Below, in pieces: positions 1 through 15,921 of a stretch of 64,000 bases of DNA. The notes beneath the pieces are model-generated. The model was not told the origin of the DNA. It saw only the letters and a list, made by a program, of their open reading frames with translations, and searched no databases. The stretch spans positions 1 through 64,000 of the forward strand of contig NZ_BJNW01000002.1 in the NCBI RefSeq assembly GCF_006539885.1. Direction: 5' to 3'. Position 1 is the stretch's first letter; each line of letters starts with the position of its first letter. The translations under genes and the position numbers were made by a program. This stretch comes from Kocuria varians (GTDB taxonomy: Bacteria > Actinomycetota > Actinomycetes > Actinomycetales > Micrococcaceae).

Positions 1-2206
1 GGCGGGTGTCGTCGCCCTCCGCGAGCCGGGCCATCATCTCGTTGTAGGCGCGCAGCTCGGCGTCGTCCGTGCGGTCCGCCTGCCGGTCCACGCGCCGGTT
101 CTCCTTGGAGCCCTCCATGGCCCACAGGACGGCGACGATCACGGCGAGCAGGAACGTGGGGAACTCGCCGATCCCCCACATCAGCATGCCGCCGAGCTCC
201 TGGTCCTCCAGCGCACTCGGCCCCCACGGGCGCCCCATGTTCCCGAACCAGGAGGCCTGCAGGACCGTGGTCATGCTCATGATGCTGATCCCGATGAACG
301 CGTGGGCGGCCATCGTGGCGAGCAGCAGCAGCAGGCGCATGGGGTAGGCGGGACGGTGCGGGATCGGGTCGATGCCGATCAGCACGAGCGCGAACATGTA
401 CCCGGTGAACAGGAAGTGCACCATCATGAACTCGTGGCCCACGTGGTATCGCAGGGTGAAGCGGAAGAGGTCCGTGAAGTAGAACAGCACGATCGAGAAC
501 GCGAAGTTCGCCGCCGCGAAGATGGGGTTGGTCACCACCTTGCCCCACGTGGAGTGCACGAGGCGCAGGATCCACTCGCGCGGACCGCGGGTGCCGTCCC
601 GGCGGGGTTCGAGCGCCTTGAGGACCACCGTGACCGGTGCCCCGGAGACGAGGAACAGCGGGACGATCATGGTCAGGCTCATGTGCTCCACCATGTGCGC
701 GGAGAACAGCACGCGGGCGTACACGGACACGCCGCCGCTCGTGGCGTAGAGCAGGGCCACGAGGCCCACCAACCAGGAGCCGGTGCGCACCGGGGACCAG
801 GTGTCCCCGCGGCGCCACACCTTGAGCGCGGCCCACAGGTAGACCACGGCCATGAAGACCACCACGGCCACCCAGAACCAGTCCAGCCGCCACGTGGTGA
901 ACCAGCTGGCCACGGTGGGCTCCGGGGGCAGCTCGTACCACGTGAGGATGCGCGCGGGCGAGGCGTCCGGCTGCAGCTCCTCCGGCACCGGCGGGGCGGT
1001 GCGGCCCAGCGCCGTGGCGATCCCCATGAGCAGGCCCATGAGCACCACCTCCCCCAGGACCACCCGCCACAGCGTGGCCGTGCGGGAGCGCGAGCCGTCC
1101 TCGACGCCCGGGATCAGCCACTGCCGGTGGGCGAAGCCGGCCACCGCGAGCAGCAGGGTCAGCACGAGCTTCGTCAGGGCGAGCGTCCCGTACGGGGAGG
1201 CGAGCTGCTCCCACGTGCCGATGCGCACCGCGGCGTTGATCACGCCCGAGAGCAGCACGAGCACGTAGCAGCCCAGGGCCACCACGGAGTAGCGCCGCAG
1301 CACCACCGCGAGCAGGGGCTCGGTGCGGGTGCTCCTGCCGCGCCGGCTGGTCACCGAGGACTCCCGCGCGAGCAGGGGGCCTGCCCACACGAGCACCAGG
1401 ATCCCGCCCACCCACAGGCACACGCCCAGCAGGTGCAGCCCCAGGGAGTTGACGGCGCCCATGTGGTCCGCGCCGCCGGAGGCGTGGCCGTTCAGCGCCA
1501 TGGCCACGAGCGCCACGAAGGACAGCGCGAGCGTGCAGAACAGTCCCAGCAGGGCGCGCACGCCGAACACGAGGGTCGTCACGACCGCCGCGACCATCAC
1601 GATCGTCGCCTGCGCCTGCCCGGTGGAGATCCCGGTGACGTAGTGCAGCAGCTGCTGCGTGTAGTTGTCCCCGCCGCCGATCGCGGAGCCGGAGACGTCC
1701 GAGTACGTGAACACCAGCACCGCCACGGCCGCCACGGTCCACACCACGGACGCCGCGGACACGAGCTGCAGCACCGCGCGGAAGACCGGGTGCTCCGGCT
1801 GCCCCGCCTGCTCCCTGCTGTTGCGCGGCGGGCGGGTGCGGGAACGGTCCTCGAAGCGGGGCACGACCCCGATGGCGAACAGCAGCCCGCCCATCACCAC
1901 GGTCATCGCGATGTTGTGGACCACCTTCACGGTGGGCAGGCCCCAGCGCACGAGCGTGCCCGGATCGGCCACCTGCCGCGGCGCGGCCGCGCCCCCGTAG
2001 AGGAGCGCGGCCGTCATGCCGATCATGGCCGCCACGAGCACCGCCGCAATGGTCCAGGGGCTCACGCTCACACCGGCTGCCCCGGAACCGCCGCTCCCGC
2101 CGGACGACGGCGCGCGGCCGGCCCGGGCGGCGTCGGCCCCGCCCGTGGGTCGGGCGCGGTCCTTTCCGCCGGTTCCCCTGCCCGTCGTGCGTGCGGTGCT
2201 GCTCAT
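1..2206 (-). CDS. CopD / CtaG fusion membrane protein (3' end outside window)
   Basis: Polytopic membrane protein; about 735 residues are visible before it runs off the left edge. After a Gly/Ala-rich N-terminus, the first half has the helices of a CopD copper-resistance permease. The second half is a Caa3/CtaG-type cytochrome oxidase assembly domain with His-Met clusters such as SAHMVEHM and YHVGHEFMMVH, plausible copper ligands. The visible C-terminus is charged and cytoplasmic. The ATG at 2206 is preceded by GGAGGG at good spacing. It is the last gene of the minus-strand copper cluster and follows the DyP peroxidase by 55 bp. CopD/CtaG fusions are known in actinobacteria. Role in moving copper across the membrane or to oxidase is inferred from family and neighbours. 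Confidence 0.88.
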   Translation of the reverse strand, partial: MSSTARTTGRGTGGKDRARPTGGADAARAGRAPSSGGSGGSGAAGVSVSPWTIAAVLVAAMIGMTAALLYGGAAAPRQVADPGTLVRWGLPTVKVVHNIAMTVVMGGLLFAIGVVPRFEDRSRTRPPRNSREQAGQPEHPVFRAVLQLVSAASVVWTVAAVAVLVFTYSDVSGSAIGGGDNYTQQLLHYVTGISTGQAQATIVMVAAVVTTLVFGVRALLGLFCTLALSFVALVAMALNGHASGGADHMGAVNSLGLHLLGVCLWVGGILVLVWAGPLLARESSVTSRRGRSTRTEPLLAVVLRRYSVVALGCYVLVLLSGVINAAVRIGTWEQLASPYGTLALTKLVLTLLLAVAGFAHRQWLIPGVEDGSRSRTATLWRVVLGEVVLMGLLMGIATALGRTAPPVPEELQPDASPARILTWYELPPEPTVASWFTTWRLDWFWVAVVVFMAVVYLWAALKVWRRGDTWSPVRTGSWLVGLVALLYATSGGVSVYARVLFSAHMVEHMSLTMIVPLFLVSGAPVTVVLKALEPRRDGTRGPREWILRLVHSTWGKVVTNPIFAAANFAFSIVLFYFTDLFRFTLRYHVGHEFMMVHFLFTGYMFALVLIGIDPIPHRPAYPMRLLLLLATMAAHAFIGISIMSMTTVLQASWFGNMGRPWGPSALEDQELGGMLMWGIGEFPTFLLAVIVAVLWAMEGSKENRRVDRQADRTDDAELRAYNEMMARLAEGDDTR

Positions 2207-14143: not shown

Positions 14144-14629
14144 ATGGACACCCCACCCAGCGCCCGGAACGTCAGATGGCTCAGCGAGACCGAGCAGGAC
14201 GTCTGGCGCGGCTTCCTCCAGCTCAGCCGCGGCATGGAACGGGCCGTGGACCGGCAGCTGCAGCGCGACAGCGACCTCTCCAGCTCCGAGTACGAAATCC
14301 TGGTGCCGCTCTCCGAGGCGCCCTCCGAGGGGTTGCCCTCGCGGGAGCTACTGCGGCTTCTGGGCTGGGAGCGCTCGCGGCTGTCCCACATGCTCTCGCG
14401 GATGGAGCGCCGCGGCATGATCTCCCGCTCCCCCAGCCCCACGGACGCCCGCGGGCTCGTCGTGGGGATCACCGCCCACGGCCGGGAAGTCATCGAGAAC
14501 GCGGCCCCCGGGCACCTGGTACTCGTGCGGGAGGCCTTCATGGACCTGCTGGACGAGGAGGAGAGCTCCGCCCTGCTGGGCATCGCGGAGAAGGTGCTCC
14601 CCCGGCTCGAGGAGATGGGCCACCGCTGA
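14144..14629 (+). CDS. MarR-family transcriptional regulator
   Basis: 161 aa. Winged helix-turn-helix with recognition region SRELLRLLGWERSRLSHMLSRMERRGMISR and wing SPSPTDARGLVVGITAHG, typical of MarR. Flanking helices form the dimer interface. ATG 14144 is preferred; a GTG at 14084 overlapping the previous stop would add 20 Pro-rich residues and suggests coupling. Ligand and targets unknown. Confidence 0.9.
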   Translation: MDTPPSARNVRWLSETEQDVWRGFLQLSRGMERAVDRQLQRDSDLSSSEYEILVPLSEAPSEGLPSRELLRLLGWERSRLSHMLSRMERRGMISRSPSPTDARGLVVGITAHGREVIENAAPGHLVLVREAFMDLLDEEESSALLGIAEKVLPRLEEMGHR

Positions 14630-14667
14630 GGGGTCGCCCCCGAGGGATCCGTGCCGGGCGGTCCGGG

Positions 14668-14821
14668 AAAAAGTCCTGTTAACAGGGGACGGGTCCTGCC
14701 ACTTGGGGGATCGGCAGGACCCGTCGGACATCCCGAATCTGGGGGAGATCGGGACGCCGGCCAACCGGGGGAACGTCCGTGCGCTCATTTGGGGGGATGC
14801 GCCCGGGCCACTTCGGCCGAC
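14668..14821 (-). ncRNA. Probable small RNA with four C-loop hairpins (6C-RNA-like)
   Basis: Read on the minus strand, four hairpins follow each other and each presents a run of C in its loop: C6 at 14791-14796, C5 at 14767-14771, C5 at 14741-14745 and C5 at 14705-14709. Stems: GCGC/GCGC, GGACG/CGTCC (14752-14756 with 14774-14778), TCCCGA/TCGGGA plus TCT/AGA, and a perfect 13-bp stem (14688-14700 with 14713-14725). A CCTGTTAACAGG palindrome followed by five T (14668-14672) ends the unit and a promoter lies just upstream. The actinobacterial 6C RNA family is defined by hairpins with six-C loops, usually two. Length about 150 nt. Confidence 0.65.
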
Positions 14822-14827
14822 ATCAAC

Positions 14828-14857
14828 ACTTTATGTGGCAACTCCATCGAGACGCAA
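14828..14857 (-). promoter_or_regulatory. Promoter for the C-loop small RNA
   Basis: Minus strand: -35 TTGCGT (14852-14857), 18-base spacer, -10 TAAAGT (14828-14833), predicted start near 14821. The surrounding 14820-14900 is clearly AT-richer than the rest of the window. Confidence 0.5.
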
Positions 14858-14970
14858 GTAATGGGGCGCATTGCGCACAAAATATCATTTCGCATCGTCT
14901 TTTGGGCCGGTGGCAGGGCGCAACATTCCGTCACACCGTCATATAGGTGAGGGTTCCCTCACCACGAGAA

Positions 14971-15921
14971 CTACGGCAGGGCGACGTCGTTGTCCCCCGG
15001 AAGAACCACACCCTCCGCCCGCTGCGGCGCCGCCACCCCGGTCCCGCCGTCCGTGAGGTCCACCACCACGTCCAGCAGGGAGCGCACGAGCGCGGAGCGC
15101 TCGTCACGGCGCCACGCGAGCGCCAGCTCCACCTCCGGCGCGTCCACCAGGTCCACGTAGGCCACGCCGTCGAGCCGCAGGGCCCGCACCGAGGCCGGGA
15201 CCGCGGCGATCCCGCTGCCCGCGGCGACGAAGGAGAGCATCTCGGCGGTGCCCTGCGCGACCCGGGCGGTGCGCGGCTCGAACCCGTGGCGCCGGCACAG
15301 CTCGCGCAGCGCACGGTGGACCACGGACATCGGCGGGTGCGCGACGAACGCCTGTTCCCGCAGCTCGGCCACCTCCGGGGCCCGGCCGGCGGCGAAGGAG
15401 CTCCCGGCGGGGACCGCGACCACCAGGGGATCCCGACGGAGCACCCGGAACTCGACCTCCGGGGAGGCCACCGGCGGGCGGAGGAAGGCGATGTCCAACG
15501 AGCCGTCCCGCAGCCCGCTCTCCATGGTGGGCGTCAGCAGCTCGCCCCGGGCCAGCGCACCCACCCCGGGCAGCCGCTCCTCGATCCGGCGCACGACCGC
15601 CGGCATCAGGTCGTAGGTCGCGCTGCCCGCGAAGCCGAGCCGGGCGTCCCCCGTGGTGCCGCTGCCGAGCCGACGCACGTCCGCCTCGAGGGCCTCGAGC
15701 TCCTCGACGACCTTGCGCCCACGGTCCAGCAGCTCCTGGCCCGCGGGCGTGAGGTCCACGCGGCGCGTCGTGCGGTCCAGCAGCCGTACCCCCAGCTGCT
15801 CCTCCAGCTGCCGGATCTGCTGCGACAGCGGCGGCTGCGCCATGTGCAGCCGCTTGGCCGCACGGCCGAAGTGCCGCTCCTCGGCCACGGCGATGAACTG
15901 GGTGAGGTGTCGCAGCTCCAC
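14971..15921 (-). CDS. LysR-family transcriptional regulator
   Basis: 316 aa. N-terminal helix-turn-helix (AEERHFGRAAKRLHMAQPPLSQQIRQLEEQLG region) is canonical; the rest is a two-lobed effector-binding domain. GTG start at 15921. It ends 12 bp from the start side of the acyl-CoA synthetase stop (15934), with both on the minus strand, so it may be co-transcribed downstream of it, an unusual order for a LysR controlling a divergent gene. Effector unknown. Confidence 0.92.
   Translation of the reverse strand: MELRHLTQFIAVAEERHFGRAAKRLHMAQPPLSQQIRQLEEQLGVRLLDRTTRRVDLTPAGQELLDRGRKVVEELEALEADVRRLGSGTTGDARLGFAGSATYDLMPAVVRRIEERLPGVGALARGELLTPTMESGLRDGSLDIAFLRPPVASPEVEFRVLRRDPLVVAVPAGSSFAAGRAPEVAELREQAFVAHPPMSVVHRALRELCRRHGFEPRTARVAQGTAEMLSFVAAGSGIAAVPASVRALRLDGVAYVDLVDAPEVELALAWRRDERSALVRSLLDVVVDLTDGGTGVAAPQRAEGVVLPGDNDVALP

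Follow-up and report, generated by a model that had tools for sequence, protein, structure and literature searches.

The 64,000-nt stretch of Kocuria varians DNA analysed here (hereafter, the window) carries on its minus strand four closely spaced runs of five or six cytidines. The original prediction held that these runs mark an expanded relative of the 6C RNA, which is known as B11 in mycobacteria and as cgb_03605 in C. glutamicum. The locus raises two questions, namely whether it encodes a 6C-family RNA and, if so, how many C-rich loops that RNA presents.

The runs occupy positions 14796-14791 (C6), 14771-14767 (C5), 14745-14741 (C5) and 14709-14705 (C5), and their starts are spaced by 25, 26 and 36 nt. 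A reading of the sequence finds these coordinates and spacings, as well as the T5 tail and the −35/−10-like pair, just as they had been described. This is the sole cluster of four C5 runs per 120 nt in the window. We do not regard the clustering as significant by itself, because at least one such cluster was present in 50 of 100 order-1 simulations, although these averaged 328 C5 runs compared to 210 in the real window and therefore somewhat overstate the role of chance. Predicted folding of the region is better than that of shuffled sequences, with z-scores of −3.74 (190 nt) and −3.80 (143 nt) and none of 200 shuffles reaching the real value in either case.

Membership in the 6C family

Judged from its match to the curated family model, the minus-strand feature is real and encodes a predicted sRNA of the 6C family. 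The covariance-model search that had been suggested as a check places an Rfam RF01066 (6C) match at 14684..14759 on the minus strand, where it scores 49.4 bits and so passes the gathering score of 47; the source genome has no other 6C match at E <= 0.001. The model spans 75 positions, and within them we find the pair of neighbouring C-loop hairpins that typifies 6C RNAs (hereafter, HP3 and HP4).

Excerpts of the published descriptions give six or more Cs for each 6C loop (PMC8388888) or 'typically' six (PMC4046766). Both canonical loops of the window copy are C5, and the loop of an additional hairpin, HP1, is C6. Among 27 genomes of the genus, the HP3 loop is C5 in all but one, which has C6, and the HP4 loop is C4 in 5, C5 in 14 and C6 in 8. 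Because the curated 6C model accepts the window copy, we read the six-C figure as typical rather than as defining.

The RF01066 model matches 24 of the 27 genus genomes at E <= 0.001 and 15 of them above the gathering score. It thus misses its own cut-off in 12 genomes, and it stops short of the 5' end of the RNA in Kocuria. The full RNA described below is present in all 27 genomes, the window's own included. Moreover, a covariance model of the full RNA (R1) built from 24 genus sequences matches the three remaining genomes, which were left out of the model, over the full length of the RNA (E values of 1.6e-19, 1.6e-16 and 6.2e-16).

A weak match to Scr3920 (RF02828) was observed on the plus strand at 14628-14729. 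This identity was rejected, given that the match scores 25 bits versus 88 and consists of the 6C hairpins in antisense; it may be that Scr3920 as defined in Rfam is a 6C locus read on its other strand.

Three C-loops and a long-range helix

As read from comparison of the genus sequences, the RNA has three C-loop hairpins, the first of which stands on a long-range two-tier stem, and the structure covaries. In this 5' domain, helix P0 pairs the eight 5'-most bases of the predicted RNA (GTCGGCCG, 14814..14821, minus strand) with CGGTTGGC (14760..14767, minus strand) and encloses HP1. P0 is present both in the RNAalifold consensus and in the minimum-energy fold of the window copy. It is 99.0% paired, shows changes on both sides in six of its eight pairs, and has a covariation score that was reached by 0 of 500 shuffles. 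The helix was proposed from 24 sequences, and all eight pairs form in each of the three genus genomes outside that set. Between P0 and HP1 lies an invariant GG (14808..14809, minus strand) that RNAalifold predicts to pair with the CC at 14771-14770; it is found in 25 of 25 distinct sequences, and this invariance means that covariation offers it no support.

The additional C-loop hairpin, HP1 (14777..14806, minus strand), is formed by the stem 14806-14799/14784-14777 and displays the C6 loop at 14796-14791. Its stem, which includes one G.A mismatch in the window copy, is 98.5% paired, with both-side changes in four of eight pairs. Downstream are the two hairpins that lie in the Rfam match. HP3 (14727..14758, minus strand) carries the C5 loop at 14745-14741, and its seven outer pairs are 98.9% paired with 0 doubly changed; when three inner pairs of the window copy are also counted, over 24 sequences, 87.1% of cells are paired, and these inner pairs are not conserved in every relative. 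HP4 (14688..14725, minus strand), with the loop GATCCCCCAAGT, is 99.7% paired and exhibits both-side changes in 8 of 14 pairs.

In alignment A4 (27 sequences, 25 distinct), the whole structure comprises 39 pairs with 99.2% of cells paired, a percentage that leans towards the RNAalifold structure, which was known when the count was made; slid versions of the structure reach 31.8-48.0%. Changes on both sides occur in 18 of the 39 pairs versus 8.8 in shuffles, and the covariation score is 0.383 versus 0.196, with 0 of 500 shuffles as high. Compensatory changes in other Kocuria genomes, which had been named as a check on the stems, are therefore evident. RNAalifold run on a sequence-only alignment (A1, 24 sequences) likewise returned 39 pairs, 13 of them doubly changed in at least one sequence, and its result matches the structure drawn by eye. 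The first pair count, made on A1, also covered 39 pairs, including the three inner HP3 pairs of the window copy, and gave 96.1% paired. The A4 pair set follows RNAalifold in that it omits these three pairs and includes the GG/CC step together with one inner pair of HP4.

This architecture differs from the four hairpins, each exposing C5-C6, that had been proposed, and on the sequence comparisons it is better supported. Three of the four C-runs do reside in apical loops, and their Cs have mean unpaired probabilities of 0.97, 0.85 and 0.99 (runs 1, 3 and 4, over 24 sequences). The second run (14767..14771, minus strand) instead has a value of 0.61, being partly paired, and is not a hairpin loop, but lies between the GG/CC step and P0 on the 3' side; it is C5 in 12 of 27 genus genomes and has fewer than five Cs in the other 15. 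Hairpin 2 as drawn, which we took as GGACG/CGTCC, is 98.3% pairable, but 0 of its 5 pairs are doubly changed and its bases are shared with HP1 and HP3. This hairpin dissolves because its C-run sits 3' in the two-tier 5' domain that is explained by the covarying P0. The four-hairpin drawing was rejected on these grounds and on the RNAalifold consensus.

The unpaired stretch that follows HP1 (14776-14772, minus strand) is strongly conserved and includes an AUG in 22 of 27 genomes. A short ORF starting at this AUG was considered and rejected, since the triplet is ACG in two genomes (one of them the source of the window copy), AAG in two and ATA in one of the 27, and single-base indels between relatives within the RNA also count against it. 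This stretch and the invariant GG/CC step show more conservation than a spacer needs, and perhaps constitute a protein site.

Such conservation also speaks for the most probable of the competing explanations, which we nevertheless judge to be unlikely. According to this explanation, the RNA is an ordinary two-loop 6C RNA in which only HP3 and HP4 pair with targets, and P0 and HP1 serve a structural purpose such as 5'-end protection or protein binding. In keeping with it, the excerpted report on C. glutamicum 6C places the 5' end 27 nt further out than Rfam predicts (PMC4046766), and some 6C loci of other families have, by eye, a small hairpin immediately before the two canonical ones; in two of these (L048 and L050), the C5 of the small hairpin faces GGGG, with which pairing is possible. 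However, the HP1 loop has no fewer than four Cs in any of the 27 genomes, and has six in 20 of them, while the letters of its stem change with compensation, which is the signature of a C-loop that has been kept, and a third C-loop is also found in other genera of the family.

Ends, promoter and neighbouring genes

On the minus strand, a −35-like TTGCGT (14852..14857) is separated by an 18-nt spacer from a −10-like TAAAGT (14828..14833) that ends 6 nt ahead of helix P0. A generic scan of positions 14600-15000 reported neither a promoter nor a terminator, the −35-like element being missed by its stricter settings, and therefore the promoter assignment rests on conservation. When a looser pattern was searched (TTGNNN-16..19-TANNNT, ending 6-7 nt before the first RNA helix), all 27 genus genomes were found to carry TTGNNN-(17 or 18)-TANNNT, with a gap to the first base of P0 of 6 nt in 26 genomes and 7 nt in 1. 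Such a promoter pair at 6-7 nt occurs in only 34 of 10,800 shuffled upstream sequences. The natural reading is that transcription of the sRNA would start at the first base of P0.

The 3' end is less well defined, as the T5 tail is not kept in all relatives. In the window, a candidate terminator can be read at 14668..14686 on the minus strand, where a small hairpin (CCTG-TTAA-CAGG) is followed by AC and the T5 run (14672-14668). Based on the promoter spacing and this tail, the predicted sRNA would begin with P0 and finish with the T5 tail (14668..14821, minus strand), a length of about 154 nt.

Between the −35 and −10 elements of four loci (L019, L021, L022 and L024), an inverted repeat of the type GGGGACA...TGTCCCC can be seen by eye, which is a possible operator. 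Another locus (L068) also has an inverted repeat at this place, with a different middle, and none was seen by eye in other Kocuria clades.

The usual neighbour is a convergent MarR-family gene (Pfam PF12802; 14084..14629, plus strand), which lies downstream in convergent orientation at each of 24 loci and at L068, for a total of 25 of the 27 genus genomes. No MarR or LysR match was found within the available flanks of the other two (L074 and L076), and none of the loci tested in three further genera of the family (g10, g30 and g5, discussed below) matches either gene. A protein search with the MarR neighbour yielded 11 named loci, 10 from Kocuria (K. marina, K. rhizophila, K. salsicia, K. carniphila and others) and 1 from Xenophilus. 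The ten Kocuria loci carry the full RNA, although they overlap the 27 genomes and do not constitute independent evidence.

This arrangement invites the explanation that the hairpins are a cis element, acting as a terminator or attenuator between an upstream LysR gene on the same strand and the convergent MarR gene, which lies about 58 nt past the Rfam match. RF01066 is indeed typed 'Cis-reg' in Rfam. We consider a cis element quite improbable, as the RNA has its own promoter-like element at a fixed distance in 27 of 27 genomes, the LysR gene was detected upstream in 9 of 24 loci and, among the three further genomes, in L068 alone, the flanks being short, and excerpts of the C. glutamicum study report 6C as a transcript of about 100 nt by northern (PMC4046766). 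Least probable of all is the structure with four tandem hairpins and four C loops, which has four C5-C6 runs in the right places and a pairable second stem in its favour, but whose second hairpin has no covarying pair, shares its arms with HP1 and HP3 and has a run that is C5 in only 12 of 27 genomes; moreover, the region is accounted for by P0, whose covariation is a strong argument against four hairpins for the genus as a whole. The broader proposal of an expanded 6C-like small RNA is nonetheless borne out by the Rfam match above the gathering score, the extra conserved 5' C-loop, the conserved promoter pattern and the compensated stems.

Loop number, proposed function and known systems

Searching 297 genomes of the order with the Rfam 6C model gave matches in 48. 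By eye, none of the 29 non-window loci fetched from these matches has a convincing third C-loop beside the canonical pair, the other 18 matches being outside this reading. In a test for perfect-stem hairpins with at least C4 in the 110 nt upstream, 7 of the 29 other-family loci were positive (108 of 580 when shuffled) versus 22 of 24 genus loci (120 of 480 when shuffled). At C5, the counts were 4 of 29 (L033, L036, L048 and L050) versus 19 of 24, the shuffle control having been made at C4 only. The window copy fails this test owing to its single G.A mismatch. R1 matches 1 of the 297 genomes of the order sample, which is that of the window, and 18 of 240 genomes of the family sample, comprising 17 of the genus and one of genus g30.

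Three-C-loop arrays with different 5' parts were found in three more genera of the family, namely g10 (L025-L027), g30 (L075) and g5 (L082 and L111). Two of the three g10 loci are positive in the perfect-stem test and L027 fails it; the two g10 arrays that were folded have a long, C-poor 5' hairpin. In g5, L111 (about 1400-1600, minus strand) and L082 (1459-1584, minus strand) each exhibit three tandem, nearly perfect C6-loop hairpins and have similar upstream sequences, and a distinct terminator-like hairpin with a T-run lies downstream of the L111 array. L082 scores 38.9 bits, under the 6C cut-off, and L111 has no 6C match at E <= 0.5, giving instead a sub-threshold match to ar14. These scores therefore do not establish common descent of the g5 arrays with 6C.

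Two wider searches of the family were also conducted. A triple CCCCCCA pattern matches 14 of 240 genomes, among which many matches appear by eye to be repeats or coding-like and two, both of g5, were folded. A lenient 6C search of 37 chosen genomes gave 32 places, and of the 21 read by eye many are terminator-like. A cross-genus sequence alignment of the three-loop RNAs misaligned the hairpins and was set aside, with no model based on it. Separately, genome G055 has identical 43-nt single C6-loop hairpins at two places (L087 and L099, around 1501-1543) with a similar upstream stretch, and this pair is a possible multi-copy, one-loop relative.

We consider it likely that the Kocuria RNA is a free-standing, trans-acting 6C sRNA of about 154 nt whose three C-rich apical loops serve in translational repression at G-rich ribosome-binding sites. 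If transcription starts at the first base of P0, the 5' end would be held in a helix. The 5' domain, composed of P0, the short GG/CC step and HP1, would then display a loop of C4-C6, and would be followed by the two canonical 6C hairpins, the second of which, HP4, together with the short downstream hairpin and T5, would end the RNA. Each C-loop could serve as a seed for G-rich ribosome-binding sites, and probably pairs with them in the manner of mycobacterial B11, such that translation would be repressed. A third loop would permit more mRNAs or G-tracts to be bound per RNA, thereby raising capacity or avidity. Such a multivalent regulator is an extrapolation from reports on 6C RNAs with two loops.

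Repression of mRNAs with G-rich leaders is proposed because of what has been published on B11, M. marinum 6C and sX13. Excerpts of these reports state that B11 of M. abscessus represses through the eccB4 leader by base-pairing of its C-loops with a G6 tract there, that either loop suffices, that mutating both abolishes repression and that compensatory loop mutations restore it (PMC10470900). In M. marinum, the seed is reported to be the C-rich loop-3 (PMC12395582). The Xanthomonas RNA sX13 is described as having three stems and three apical C-rich loops that contribute unequally, and as repressing mRNAs that carry G-rich motifs close to their start codons, with Hfq being dispensable (PMC3771888).

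A scan of 464 kb of the Kocuria genome (about 16% of it), in which genes were called crudely by a GC3 filter and with preference for the first ATG, found a 6-nt loop complement in the 25 nt upstream of 15 of 280 gene starts versus 11-15 in controls, and hence no enrichment of loop-complementary 6-mers before these start codons. This outcome is compatible with both the presence and the absence of a small set of true targets.

According to the excerpted study, either B11 loop is enough for repression of one target in M. abscessus (PMC10470900), which gives the repetition of loops its interest. The natural series of two-loop and three-loop RNAs, the third loop being backed by covariation across all 27 Kocuria genomes, would allow the effect of loop number to be tested directly in a laboratory strain. 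We tentatively suggest, while regarding it as more doubtful than not, that in the Micrococcaceae the number of C-loops in 6C-type RNAs changes over evolution as entire hairpins are added or lost, to give one-, two- and three-loop forms, that a third loop, which in Kocuria stands on the long-range two-tier stem, enables simultaneous binding of two or three G-tracts or mRNAs by a single RNA, and that valency is tunable in this way.

The 6C family was already known, and what is new here, as read from the sequence comparisons, is a three-C-loop form with a covarying long-range helix. In the titles and abstract openings of the open-licence PMC papers among the matches listed, there is neither a 6C RNA in Kocuria nor a three-C-loop 6C; the available part of one paper (PMC6789036) mentions both 6C RNA and Kocuria, in separate connections. 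Among known systems, the alphaproteobacterial ar14 RNA (RF02344) has no match to the window stretch at E <= 10, and the L111 array scores 39.7 bits against it, under the gathering score of 58.8. The sX13 RNA (RF02232) shares with the Kocuria RNA the presence of three C-loops, but the score of 18.1 bits versus a gathering score of 50 places the latter outside that family, and the resemblance is one of design only. With 6C (RF01066), the Kocuria RNA has in common two adjacent C-loop hairpins, an actinobacterial host and a probable promoter of its own. Unlike the described 6C RNAs, it adds a 5' domain of about 60 nt (P0 and HP1) that carries a third C-loop outside the Rfam model, and its predicted length of about 154 nt exceeds the approximately 100 nt given for C. 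glutamicum 6C in excerpts of PMC4046766.
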